Source: Ruminococcus sp. (GTDB taxonomy: Bacteria; Bacillota; Clostridia; Oscillospirales; Ruminococcaceae). From it: a stretch of 64,000 bases of DNA. The position numbers and the translations under genes are program-made. The stretch is from contig NZ_JAILNU010000112.1 of assembly GCF_024691275.1 (NCBI RefSeq), positions 1-64,000 on the forward strand, given 5' to 3'. This document shows, piece by piece, positions 17,804 to 28,135 of the stretch. Numbering within the stretch: the first letter of the stretch is position 1; each line of letters opens with the position of its first letter. The notes below the pieces were generated by a model. The model was not told the DNA's origin. It ran no database searches and saw nothing but the letters and a program-made list of their open reading frames with translations.

Positions 17804-19741
17804 ATGTCAAAAAAGTCTAAAATGAGCGTCAAAGAGTCAGTTAACGGAACTGAAAATAAGATGCTCAAAAACGCAGCTGATCCGATCGAAGCAGCGCTCG
17901 CACCGGCTGAAGAAAAGAAAACACGCTTTCCGAAATTAAAAAGATTCAATGCAAAACGTGATGAAAATTCGACAAAATACAGTAAGTTAAATATATTCCT
18001 GATGTTTATCTTCCCTGTTTTCATATGCAGCATGGCTGAGATAACTCAGTCAAAATATTTTTCATCGTATTTCAACTTTCTTACCGAAAGACCGTCGGTC
18101 ATTCTTTTTGATATAATCCTGACAGCTGTGATCTTTGTTTTCCTGCTGGGGATTTTCAGAAAAGGCTGGCTTGCAATGACCGTTCACGGAGTTATTTTCA
18201 TGGCGCTCAGCACCACGGAGCTTTTCAAGTACGGAACTAACGGAAACCACCTTATCCTCTCGGATATGAAGCTCGTAAAAAGCGTAAAGAGTCTTACATC
18301 TTTTGCTTACATCAAGATAACTCCAAAGCTGATAATATGTTACCTTATCGTTATCGCTTTTCTCGCACTGGCGATCTACTTCAATCCTAAGGTGAAATCA
18401 TCTCCGCTTCGCCGACTGACTGCTTCGTGCGTTTGTGTACTCTCTTTATCTGCACTTGTTGTTTTGCCGAAATTCTATTCGCCTGTATATAAAGCTTTCG
18501 GTATTGATACTACAAGTGCTACAAATGCGTTCCTTCTCAATGAAAAATTTGAGAACAACCACTTCCTTGCATTCCTTATTCAGACTGCTACGGAAAGCTT
18601 TGAAAACAGACTTGTTGTTCCTGATGGATACAGCGAGGAGTATATTGACGAGATCATGAACATACCTGTGGATACAGAGGAAGACTTCAACGGCGGCAAG
18701 AAGCCGAACGTTATTGTTATTATGAGTGAGTCTTATGCTGATTTCCGTGCATTTGACGAATTGAACGTAGACGATAAGTACTATAAGTACTTCGACAGAG
18801 CGATTTCAGAGGGCAAGGGCGGTACTGCTATCACCCCTACATATGCAAGCTGGACAGTCCGCTCTGAATTTGAGCTTCTTTTCGGACTTCCCGTAAGAGG
18901 TATCAATACTCCTAATATGCCTCAGCGTGAGCTTGCAGACCGTGAACAGCCTGCACTTGCGCAGTATTATAAGGACTGGGGCTATGAAACAGTTTATGTT
19001 CATCCTTTCCAGAGCGGTTTCTACAGCCGTGCAAGGATATACGGTCACTTTGGCTTTGAAAAGATGATATACCATGATGACCAGTCTGCTACTACCGATT
19101 TCACAGTTCCGATACAGCACTTTGGTACATATGTTGACGATTCATCGGTTTTCAATCAGATAATCTCCGAGATAAAAACTTCTGACAGACCGATATATCT
19201 CCACACAACTACTATGCAGAACCACCAGCCTTACAATCAGGGCGAGGATCCTGATGACGAATTCGGCAATTATCTTACATGGGTTCAGCATACAAATGAA
19301 GGACTTAAAAAGTTCCTTAATGAACTGAAGGATATAGACGAACCCACACTTGTATTCTTTGTAGGCGATCACTTCCCATCTCTCAGAGGCGAAACAAGTG
19401 TATATAATCAGCTCGGACTTAACGGCGACAACTGCGATGCGCTTTATCAGCAGAAGTATTTCTTCTGGAGCAATTATAACGCTGATCTGTCAATTGTTCC
19501 CGATAAGGAGATCTCATTCTTCTATATTCCATATGTGATATTGAATATCATAGACGCTCCAAGAGATCAGTTTATTGAGAAAATGAACGATTTTATGGAA
19601 AAACTTCCTGTTTACTCAACGGAGTATGACAGCGATACACCTAAAAATGACGAGCTTGATATTCTGACTATAGACAGAGTAGTTATGGAGGAGTATTCTC
19701 CTTCGCCTATCCCTGAGGAAGAACTTGCAACCCACAACTAA
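17804..19741 (+). CDS. LTA synthase family sulfatase-like membrane protein
   Basis: Multi-TM N-terminus, then NVIVIMSESYADFRAF...TPTYASWTVRSEFELLFGLP...FFVGDHFPSL. Confidence 0.9.
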   Translation: MSKKSKMSVKESVNGTENKMLKNAADPIEAALAPAEEKKTRFPKLKRFNAKRDENSTKYSKLNIFLMFIFPVFICSMAEITQSKYFSSYFNFLTERPSVILFDIILTAVIFVFLLGIFRKGWLAMTVHGVIFMALSTTELFKYGTNGNHLILSDMKLVKSVKSLTSFAYIKITPKLIICYLIVIAFLALAIYFNPKVKSSPLRRLTASCVCVLSLSALVVLPKFYSPVYKAFGIDTTSATNAFLLNEKFENNHFLAFLIQTATESFENRLVVPDGYSEEYIDEIMNIPVDTEEDFNGGKKPNVIVIMSESYADFRAFDELNVDDKYYKYFDRAISEGKGGTAITPTYASWTVRSEFELLFGLPVRGINTPNMPQRELADREQPALAQYYKDWGYETVYVHPFQSGFYSRARIYGHFGFEKMIYHDDQSATTDFTVPIQHFGTYVDDSSVFNQIISEIKTSDRPIYLHTTTMQNHQPYNQGEDPDDEFGNYLTWVQHTNEGLKKFLNELKDIDEPTLVFFVGDHFPSLRGETSVYNQLGLNGDNCDALYQQKYFFWSNYNADLSIVPDKEISFFYIPYVILNIIDAPRDQFIEKMNDFMEKLPVYSTEYDSDTPKNDELDILTIDRVVMEEYSPSPIPEEELATHN

Positions 19742-19751
19742 GGAGATCAAT

Positions 19752-20141
19752 ATGAAAGAAATTACAAAAGGTATCACAGGAACATCTGAACTTACTGTTT
19801 CGGATAAGGAGCTTGCCGTAAATGTTGGCAGCGGAAGTCTTGAAGTATTTGCAACACCTGTTATGGTAATGCTCATGGAAAAAGCTGCCTGCAACTGTAT
19901 TTCCGATTATCTACAGGGCGATGAAACTACTGTAGGTACTGAAATGAACGTAAAGCACACCTCTGCAACACCTAATAAAATGAAGGTGTGTGCTGAAGCA
20001 GAACTCATCGAGATAAACGGAAGAGAGCTTGTTTTTTCGGTAAAGGCTTATGATGAAGCAGGCGACATCGGTGAAGGAATACACAAAAGATTCCTTGTTT
20101 ACGGTGAGAAATTCACTGCTAAAACGTATTCAAAGCTATAA
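19752..20141 (+). CDS. Thioesterase family protein (FlK-like hot-dog)
   Basis: TSELTVSDKELAVNVGSGSLEVFATPVMVMLMEKAA...GDETTVGTEMNVKHTSATP; ATG 19752 after AAGGAG. Confidence 0.85.
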   Translation: MKEITKGITGTSELTVSDKELAVNVGSGSLEVFATPVMVMLMEKAACNCISDYLQGDETTVGTEMNVKHTSATPNKMKVCAEAELIEINGRELVFSVKAYDEAGDIGEGIHKRFLVYGEKFTAKTYSKL

Positions 20142-20143
20142 TA

Positions 20144-20176
20144 AGAAAGGACTTCCATGTACGGAAGTCCTTTCTT
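20144..20176 (+). terminator. Intrinsic terminator
   Basis: AAAGGACTTCCatgtacGGAAGTCCTTTctttg. Confidence 0.8.
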
Positions 20177-20229
20177 TGTTGCATTTTTTATAATAATATG
20201 TTATTATATAAAAGGAAAGAGGTGTTCTT

Positions 20230-20745
20230 ATGTCTGAAAAAGCTTTACTGGTTATTGATATGCAGAATGATTATCTATGGGAAAAAAGAAAAAATAAGTT
20301 TGCTTACGATACACCACATCTCGTTAATAAAGTAAATGATACTATCATTGAATACAGCAGAAATGGCTGGGACATTATCTATATTTTACAGGTATTTCCA
20401 AATATCGTCACGAATCGTTGGTTTATAGGCTTTTCGATAAGCGGTACAGAAGGTGCCGAGTTATATAAAGGAGTAGAATTGGTATCAGAATATTGTTTTG
20501 AGAAGAATTTTCCCGATACATTTACTTCCAAGCTTTTCAGAGAGCATATAAAAAAGACGGGCTGTACCGAGTTCGCTATATGTGGGATAGATGAATGCGG
20601 ATGTGTTGGCGCAACGGCAATGGGAGCTGTAAAAGCAGGTTACAAAGTCAAAATGATAAAAGATGCCATTGGCTGTAGATTTTCAAATGAAAAGCTTGAG
20701 AAAAAGCGCAATAAGCTTATTTCTCTCGGAGTCGAATACATATAA
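20230..20745 (+). CDS. Cysteine hydrolase (isochorismatase family)
   Basis: ALLVIDMQNDY...CGIDECGCVGATAMGAVKAGYKV. Confidence 0.9.
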   Translation: MSEKALLVIDMQNDYLWEKRKNKFAYDTPHLVNKVNDTIIEYSRNGWDIIYILQVFPNIVTNRWFIGFSISGTEGAELYKGVELVSEYCFEKNFPDTFTSKLFREHIKKTGCTEFAICGIDECGCVGATAMGAVKAGYKVKMIKDAIGCRFSNEKLEKKRNKLISLGVEYI

Positions 20746-20751
20746 AAAAGT

Positions 20752-20878
20752 TCACCTTTTAAGGTCGGTACTTATATAAAAAATTTACACGATATTATCG
20801 GGGTAAACCTTTCCTCAGAAAGGTTTACCTTAATATCTCATGTAAAAACTTATATATAAGTACCGCTGTAAAAGGTGA
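20752..20878. repeat. Long imperfect inverted repeat between convergent genes (127 nt, 47 paired positions)
   Basis: Perfect paired blocks: 20752-20760/20870-20878, 20766-20778/20853-20865, 20784-20789/20841-20846, 20791-20797/20831-20837, 20802-20813/20818-20829; loop CTCA. Confidence 0.9.
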
Positions 20879-20883
20879 CTTTA

Positions 20884-22347
20884 TTAGTTTTCTGAAGTTT
20901 TAGAGTTATTTCTGAATGGTTCTTTTTTCTGTTCGGTGATGTTCTTTTTCTCTTCAAGGGTAACGCGGATCTTTATATCCTTACCGTTTCGTGAAACAGT
21001 GAGTGTTATCGTATCGCCGGCTTTGAATGTATTTTTAACTTCGTTAAGCTCTTCGGCGTTTGAAATTGCCTTGCCCTCGATGTCAATTATAACATCGCCT
21101 TCTTCGATGCCTGCGATATCGGCAGCACTTCCCTCTTGTACTGCTATGACATAAACACCCACGGGAAGATTCCAGTATCTTGACTTAGCTTCGCTGATAT
21201 CGTTTGTAGAAATGCCTATCTGCGGTCTTCCTGTAACATAGCGATAATTGATAAGATCATCTATTATCGTTTTTGCTTCCTTCATGGGGATAGCAAAGCA
21301 CAGACCCTCAACGCTTGCAGTATTGCTGCTATAGCTTGCAGACATTTTCGCTGAGTTTATACCAATGACCTGACCGCAGCTGTTAAGCAGCGGACCACCT
21401 GAATTACCGCTGTTTATTGCAGCATCAGTCTGGATAAGGTTCATTTTTTTCTCATTTATATCAATCTTTCGGTTAAGAGCTGAAACGATGCCGCTTGTAA
21501 CTGTACCGAAAAGATCAAATCCCAAGGGGTTGCCGACTGCTATAACAAGCTCACCAACTCGGAGTTCATCGCTGTCACCGAGAACTGCCGGTTTAAGATC
21601 TTCTTCATCGACCTTCAGAACGGCAATATCAGTTTCAGCGTCATATGCAATAACAGTTGCATCGTGTTCGGTCTCATCGCTGAATAACACCGAAACCTCT
21701 GTAGCCTCACCTGCGTTATACTGTTCGTCATAGACAACATGAGCGTTTGTTACGATATAACCGTCTTTAGTGATTATAAATCCTGTACCTGTAACTCTTA
21801 TATTTTGGGTCTCGGGTTCATTGCTCCAGCCCCACATACTGAATGTCTGCGGCTGTTCAAACTCAAAGGTCGAAGCGATACCAACTACCGAAGGCATTAT
21901 GGAATCAACGATGTCGGGAAGCGGCTTTGCATCTGAACGTGATGCAAGTTCAATAAGGCTTGGAATCTTTTCCTTTTCCACGGGATCACCTTGTGATGCA
22001 TGAAGTTCTTTTGATACAGGCTTCTGAGAATCACTTGAAGAAAATTCAGCCAGTTCGTCGCGGGTTTCCTTGAGGAATTTATAGACCTGCACCGTAGCTG
22101 CGCTGACTACAATAAGCATAAGGAAAGCAGCTGCTGTTTTAAGTGCGAAGAAATTTTTCTTTTTCTTTGTTTTTTCTGCATTTTCCGATGTATACGCATA
22201 TGATCCGTTCATGTCAGTGTTAAGGTCTTTAGTTTCATCAATAATATTCTGATCTGTATCTGGGTATCTTTTTTTATCGAACAAGTCGTCTGAACTATAA
22301 TTATCATTTTCGTTATAATTACCTGACAATTTACTCATCCTTCCCAT
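20884..22347 (-). CDS. HtrA/DegP-like trypsin-like serine protease with PDZ domain
   Basis: N-terminal TM; GTGFIITKDGYIVTNAHVV, DAETDIAVLKV, TDAAINSGNSGGPLLN; PDZ domain. Confidence 0.95.
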   Translation of the reverse strand: MGRMSKLSGNYNENDNYSSDDLFDKKRYPDTDQNIIDETKDLNTDMNGSYAYTSENAEKTKKKKNFFALKTAAAFLMLIVVSAATVQVYKFLKETRDELAEFSSSDSQKPVSKELHASQGDPVEKEKIPSLIELASRSDAKPLPDIVDSIMPSVVGIASTFEFEQPQTFSMWGWSNEPETQNIRVTGTGFIITKDGYIVTNAHVVYDEQYNAGEATEVSVLFSDETEHDATVIAYDAETDIAVLKVDEEDLKPAVLGDSDELRVGELVIAVGNPLGFDLFGTVTSGIVSALNRKIDINEKKMNLIQTDAAINSGNSGGPLLNSCGQVIGINSAKMSASYSSNTASVEGLCFAIPMKEAKTIIDDLINYRYVTGRPQIGISTNDISEAKSRYWNLPVGVYVIAVQEGSAADIAGIEEGDVIIDIEGKAISNAEELNEVKNTFKAGDTITLTVSRNGKDIKIRVTLEEKKNITEQKKEPFRNNSKTSEN

Positions 22348-23652: not shown

Positions 23653-23900
23653 AGACAAAAGAATTTCTGCCTTGTTCGGTGAATTATAGTTTTTATAATC
23701 CAACACATAATCCAAGGGAATTCGACTCCGTATGTGGACTGCAGACCTCCCGTACTGCGGAAGAAGGGAGCGAGAAGCATAAGGGCGTTTACCCACCTGC
23801 TTCGTGCGGGTTTTATGCACTATATGACGGCAAGGCGGATATTTTATTTGGATCTATATTAAAAGTCCGAAAGTGATATTACATCGCTTTCGGACTTTTT
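23653..23900 (+). ncRNA. ssrS: Probable 6S RNA (ssrS)
   Basis: Closing stem GCCTTG...CAAGGC, long helix with central bubble region, GGGCGTTTACCCACCTGC...GCGGGTTTTATGC; own promoter and terminator GTCCGAAAGtgatattacatCGCTTTCGGACTTTTTT. By pattern only. Confidence 0.72.
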
Positions 23901-27886: not shown

Positions 27887-27905
27887 GTCTTGATCATACC
27901 TCCAA

Positions 27906-27921
27906 CCACAATATATAGTGT
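27906..27921. promoter_or_regulatory. Candidate NrdR box in the nrdD 5' UTR
   Basis: CCACAATATATAGTGT, near match to ACACTATATATAGTGT-type NrdR boxes. Confidence 0.65.
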
Positions 27922-27944
27922 CTATCTTTCTTTCGTTCTTTATA

Positions 27945-27973
27945 AGTATAAAACAAAATGCAACCAATGTCAA
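27945..27973 (-). promoter_or_regulatory. nrdD promoter
   Basis: TTGACA-17-TATACT on the minus strand. Confidence 0.8.
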
Positions 27974-28107
27974 TGGTGCATTTTCTACAATGAGAGCGAT
28001 GGATAACATATGGCTTATTGTAGAAAATGTATATAAATTATTTAAAAAAGTGCCTTTTTGCGATATAACGACGTTTCAAGGCAGTCTACAAAATGTAATC
28101 AACCCAA

Positions 28108-28123
28108 ACACTATATATAGTGT
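28108..28123. promoter_or_regulatory. Second candidate NrdR box, perfect palindrome
   Basis: ACACTATATATAGTGT within a 32-bp perfect palindrome CAACCCAAACACTATATATAGTGTTTGGGTTG (28100-28131). Confidence 0.6.
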
Positions 28124-28135
28124 TTGGGTTGAAAA

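Follow-up and report, generated by a model that had tools for sequence, protein, structure and literature searches.

The window, i.e. the whole stretch of 64,000 nucleotides that was analysed, contains at positions 20752–20878 a long intergenic hairpin, which is very probably a non-autonomous MITE that entered a terminator loop at a TA dinucleotide, the terminator being the putative bidirectional, intrinsic one shared by an htrA-like gene and a convergent isochorismatase-like gene. The element belongs to a family of short, non-coding sequences dispersed in multiple copies, with terminal inverted repeats of defined ends, TA duplication, and empty sites.

Folding of positions 20752–20878, the sequence and coordinates of which were correct in an earlier note on this DNA, resulted on both strands in a single long interrupted hairpin with a 4-nt loop. 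The minimum free energies were −60.9 and −62.1 kcal/mol on the two strands against shuffled means of about −22 (z = −11.6 and −11.0), and none of 200 shuffles was as stable. The plus-strand fold comprised helix blocks of 9, 13, 6, 7 and 12–13 bp plus a 2-bp helix, in agreement with the five blocks (9, 13, 6, 7 and 12 bp) and the loop previously read from the letters, and extra outer pairs extended the hairpin to about 20744/20885. The gap between the two genes is filled by the hairpin, as had also been described, the ORFs ending at 20745 and 20884. The description as a single hairpin held for the fold, but the structure is a composite of two nested parts, a 107-nt element (20762–20868) within a short terminator hairpin (arms 20747–20759 and 20871–20882), and both the outer part as the host terminator and the terminator loop as the target had been missed. 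The features of the junction are the following.

20230–20745, plus strand: isochorismatase-like gene (PF00857, Isochorismatase, E-value 8e-24), which ends at the terminator.
20747–20759, no strand assigned: putative host terminator, left arm (AAAGTTCACCTTT); the minus-strand reading enters the T tract TTTTTT (20744–20749).
20760–20761, no strand assigned: TA, left copy, presumed target duplication; the duplication proper was seen at an orthologous pair in relatives, at another locus.
20762–20868, minus strand: MITE copy of the short form, 107 nt, with outer arms and one inner AACCTTTCTGAGGAAAGGTT hairpin, homologous to about 57 loci.
20869–20870, no strand assigned: TA, right copy, presumed target duplication, from the sequence of the rebuilt site.
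20871–20882, no strand assigned: putative host terminator, right arm (AAAGGTGACTTT), from sequence and fold.
20884–22347, minus strand: htrA-like gene (Pfam Trypsin_2 and PDZ, trypsin-like protease and PDZ), the stop codon of which abuts the terminator.

The left end of the window copy (CGGTACTTATA...) lies at 20868, and the left-to-right orientation of the element is therefore that of the minus strand. Both ends of this copy have drifted (TA-CAGCGGTAC and GACCT-TA), the interruptions of its stem are conserved among other copies of the family, and no ORF of at least 80 amino acids was found across 20762–20868. Removal of the element together with one TA rebuilt the site AAAGTTCACCTTT-TA-AAAGGTGACTTT, a hairpin with the loop TTAA and with TTTTTT next on the htrA strand. 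By sequence and predicted fold, the outer part thus has the make-up of an intrinsic terminator, a stem containing GC with a T tract after it, directly downstream of a gene. The base of the hairpin (20747–20759/20871–20882) is assigned as the putative intrinsic terminator shared by htrA and the isochorismatase-like gene that converges on it.

In the source genome (3.41 Mb, 117 contigs), BLAST returned 47 matches to a 141-nt stretch, and merging with end-pattern matches gave about 57 distinct loci, some of them fragmentary. The BLASTN search suggested earlier thus turned out multicopy, as predicted for a MITE. The two end patterns (up to 3 mismatches) occurred at 34 and 31 sites, and the reversed patterns at none. 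The ends are distinct and face inward, the left being (T)TA-AGCNCGGTRCTTATACAGAAG... and the right ...TTCTATATGAGTACTCCGCT-TA(A), with the family consensus (T)TA-AGCNCGGTRCTTATACAGAA ... TTCTATATGAGTACTCCGCT-TA(A) and the end signatures AGGGCGGTACTCTTATAGAAG / AGAGTAGTACTTATATAGAAG. Lengths between the core ends were about 77–360 nt in this genome, with size classes between the ends of roughly 100, 120, and 250–310 nt. The family was found in 31 of 60 sampled genomes of the genus, and searches of plasmid and phage collections gave no match to the element. One copy (L031/L092) is nested within another, where it occupies the loop CCCCTTTGTA...TACAAAGGGG of an inner terminator, and long copies contain other palindromic modules.

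The outermost stem differed in sequence at every locus in the initial folds. Pairing between the left and right flanks of the 35 two-ended copies of the source genome was assessed by a position-constrained permutation, unconstrained duplex energies having been a weak control owing to A/T tracts. Flanks of the same copy paired with a mean of −18.8 kcal/mol, versus −8.6 kcal/mol with the flanks of other copies, and in 20,000 permutations no mean this favourable was obtained. The true partner ranked among the top three of 35 in 27 copies and below third in the remaining 8, as expected from decayed terminators. When the element and one TA were removed from copies with clear ends, hairpins with mostly 3–9 nt loops and a T tract were obtained, and in the structures predicted with the element in place, 33 of the 35 copies kept their outer stem paired. 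The 3′ end of an ORF (ORFs of at least 100 amino acids, not curated genes) was at most 245 nt away in all 35 copies, in most of them less than 60 nt; 19 were located between convergent ORFs and none of these 35 inside an ORF. Selection alone is not an easy explanation for this distribution, because a copy landing just outside a terminator, by a few bases, would do equally little harm, yet the copies sit in the loops.

In R. flavefaciens SAb67 (G069), a sister element has multiplied in a recent burst; many copies are exactly 286 nt long, and the left ends are mostly 94–97% identical to a query taken from G001. Both ends were examined for 16 of these copies, 15 of which lay clearly in terminator loops (example flanks aaaaaagcccgcttaa[...]agcgggctttttt), the remaining one (L257) having a degenerate stem. 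Nearly all of 15 further SAb67 loci from related subfamilies, read by eye, had the same arrangement. The joined flanks of the 16 copies were searched in G001, G043, G045 and G047, and uninterrupted orthologous terminators were present at many of the 16 sites in G043, G045 and G047. One pair was exact, the empty site reading GCGGCACAG-TA-AAACTGTGCCGC (L275) and the filled site GCGGCACAG-TA-[AAGGCGG...CTACTCT]-TA-AAACTGTGCCGC (L255). The TA duplication agreed except for one base at L269/L283 and was consistent at L259/L276. In most of the other pairs the terminator loops had diverged, and for this reason an exact duplication is limited to one pair, with a few others compatible with it. From the filled and empty orthologous sites it follows that the element inserts at the loop TA and duplicates it. 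The MITE-like insertion listed among the possibilities of the earlier note was thereby borne out, by the multiple copies, the two distinct ends, and the occupied and empty orthologous sites in relatives.

The same pairs bear on the idea that the feature is an ordinary, unusually long bidirectional terminator, which grew by local duplication and never moved. The outer arms do form, with their T tract, a genuine hairpin of the terminator type, but only the inner 107 nt, and not the outer arms, recur at dozens of loci, and empty and filled orthologous sites exist for the family. For the inner part this explanation is already refuted, and as a whole it is extremely unlikely.

At the htrA junction, a plain short terminator hairpin without the element follows the htrA stop codon in 15 named Ruminococcus relatives, which are too distant for their terminators to be aligned with the window. 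The nearest relatives are about 78% identical in htrA, and the empty-site proof was consequently drawn from SAb67 and its relatives rather than from the window locus. No empty site was found at the junction of the window itself, the isochorismatase-like gene not being beside htrA in relatives. Inspection of orthologous junctions, as proposed earlier, thus yielded empty sites for family copies in relatives, whereas the window junction lacks an alignable relative. With respect to window positions 19725–20745, several relatives have htrA directly convergent with a homologue of the ORF at 19725–20141; here the isochorismatase-like gene intervenes between the two, and the junction has therefore been rearranged.

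G001 (MAG RGIG2886) was rejected as an empty-site genome, as its size differences near htrA were not the element and its matches to the 16 joined SAb67 flank pairs amounted to two weak ones, despite an htrA region 98% identical between SAb67 (L148) and this MAG (L149). A recent exchange of the htrA region between the two could account for this, or the MAG may not be a close sister overall.

The full-length element is about 285 nt long and has four arms, namely an outer stem, a hairpin AACCTTTCTGAGGAAAGGTT, a long central stem, and a hairpin ACCCTTTTTCAAAAGGGT. In an alignment of 15 long copies from six genomes, 94.2% of the cells paired and 30 of 67 pairs changed on both sides, values which no shuffle reached, and slid versions of the alignment paired at 44–58%; as the aligned copies are related to one another and also served to derive the structure, these figures are support rather than proof. 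Of the four arms, the window copy has kept the outer stem and a single hairpin, and it is a deletion form of the element of about 285 nt. The suggestion of a decayed mobile palindrome was in that sense partly right, the window copy being a shortened element.

Strong folding on both strands and the covariation of the full-length form would also suit an RNA encoded by the host, either structured or double-stranded and regulatory, which is expressed between the genes and processed by RNase III. The same sequence, however, is found at about 57 unrelated loci with different outer stems and is absent at orthologous positions in relatives. Rfam contains no family for it: matches of element copies were chance ones far below the cut-off, and the window has a 6S RNA elsewhere and no other match. 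In a near-palindrome, moreover, covariation is equally explicable by a role in transposition or by arm-to-arm conversion, which could be an alternative source of palindrome upkeep. A host RNA is accordingly highly improbable, and the RNase III-processed double-stranded RNA offered among the original possibilities is unsupported by the present sequence evidence and is not needed.

For the MITE, the element ends and the TA duplication together suggest that it is transposed by an enzyme supplied in trans. A TA duplication is typical of IS630/Tc1-mariner elements, and this part was found, whereas a DDE_3 transposase with matching ends was not. DDE_3 (PF13358, IS630) gave no match in G000, G047, G031 and G044, and the matches listed included none for G069 and G007. 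IS630 loci do occur in other genomes of the genus, with no element ends near them, and an IS630 transposase was thus rejected as the parent. Among DDE_3 and Y1 loci taken together, neither an autonomous copy nor a transposase with matching ends was found. In SAb67, no left and right ends were paired at an IS-like distance besides one chance match inside a gene, which had first resembled a 2.7-kb autonomous element (C12:312156 and 314815) and was discarded.

As multicopy intergenic hairpins, and with two Y1_Tnp matches in the source genome, the copies could be taken for REP/RAYT-type palindromes moved by a Y1 (HUH) transposase. This is very unlikely in view of the 2-bp target duplication, the absence of element ends near any Y1 gene, and the absence of Y1 transposase from the element-bearing genomes G047 and G007; Y1 was set aside as a parent for lack of matching ends.

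The closest published targeting that was found is that of IS1272 (IS1182 family), which reportedly targets stem-loops irrespective of sequence and proceeds by "stem-loop replacing" transposition without target duplication (PMC5678879). The enzyme moving the MITE might accordingly be named as an IS1182/IS1272-like transposase that recognises stem-loops, since in both cases the target is an inverted repeat chosen irrespective of sequence. The attribution is doubtful, as IS1272 reportedly removes the target stem-loop, makes no duplication and encodes its own transposase, whereas the present element keeps the stem on both sides and duplicates TA.

The mechanism proposed for the MITE begins with a transposase which, in trans, would recognise the element ends and pick a TA in a hairpin loop, the hairpin probably being extruded or single-stranded. 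The inserted hairpin is predicted to stack on the terminator stem, and the terminator would be expected to keep working, so that insertion would be nearly harmless and copies could accumulate; on the folding models, terminator function probably survives insertion. A broader reading, put forward tentatively as a possibility, is that the four-arm element of about 285 nt is what an undescribed transposition system acts on, in which terminators would be recognised by structure (extruded DNA, single-stranded DNA or nascent transcript), insertion would take place at the loop TA, and the hairpin form would be selected for intact termination.

ERIC and Correia elements are MITEs with TA target duplication. 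The IS630 group targets NTAN with TA duplication (PMC5678879), and RUP has been proposed as moved by IS630-Spn1 (PMC3049150). The present family resembles IS630-type MITEs in being short, multicopy, non-coding, palindromic from end to end, and intergenic with TA duplicated, and differs by entering intrinsic terminator loops, by the four-arm full-length form, and by the lack of a detected IS630 transposase in element-rich genomes; sequence kinship was compared via Rfam only. Group IIC introns are associated with terminators and insert beside the stem. They share with the present element a terminator or hairpin as target, and differ in carrying a ribozyme and in their position beside the stem. 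Structured (stem-loop) DNA targets are attacked by these introns (PMC10190682). No group II intron match to Rfam was obtained in the window or in the long copies L186, L026 and L200. The SPRITE repeats of pneumococcus are terminator-like and enriched between convergent genes, no empty site having been found for them, and SPRITE, BOX and RUP repeats insert into one another (PMC3049150). Positions between convergent genes and nesting of copies are likewise seen here; SPRITE, however, is itself terminator-like, whereas the present element occupies the loop of a terminator that belongs to the host. Taken singly, there is precedent for MITEs, for TA duplications, for structure-directed insertion and for terminator-like repeats, and a limited literature search (open-licence PMC papers) found no report of a MITE family located in terminator loops with the stem intact.

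Insertion into terminator loops may be regarded as a "safe haven" strategy, as all 35 two-ended copies lie 3′ of ORFs and a hairpin insert probably spares termination, judging from the models. The natural empty and filled pairs provide a test of how a transposase chooses a hairpin over a sequence, and they also probe how far a terminator loop may be stretched before termination fails. Long intergenic palindromes in Ruminococcus need not be regulatory RNAs but can be mobile elements, and such mobile palindromes affect annotation and assembly, several contigs ending in these element repeats.

Further repeats were observed in and around the copies. On contigs C113, C18 and C99 of the source genome (L102, L145 and L128), repeated GTGGCTCA...TTTTTTATT units resemble insertion sequence ends; located where the contigs end, they split element copies or lie next to them. 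Many copies, among them L193, L201, L305, L316 and the own-genome copies L019 and L021, contain a further palindromic module (GTGACTCCCCGCAGTGCGGGGAGATGTCACGCAGTGACAGAGGGG or a close variant) beside an inner hairpin, probably another nested mobile palindrome. In two loci from other genera of the bacterial family (L326 and L327, in G260 and G403), the three inner arms are found again, joined to entirely different outer arms, as if hairpin, long stem and hairpin were a conserved cassette carried by several element families. Elsewhere in the window, a 6S RNA gene (23661–23845, plus strand) scored above the Rfam gathering threshold, and an imperfect inverted repeat (27902–28127) has 41-nt arms around ACACTATATATAGTGT, 144 nt apart.
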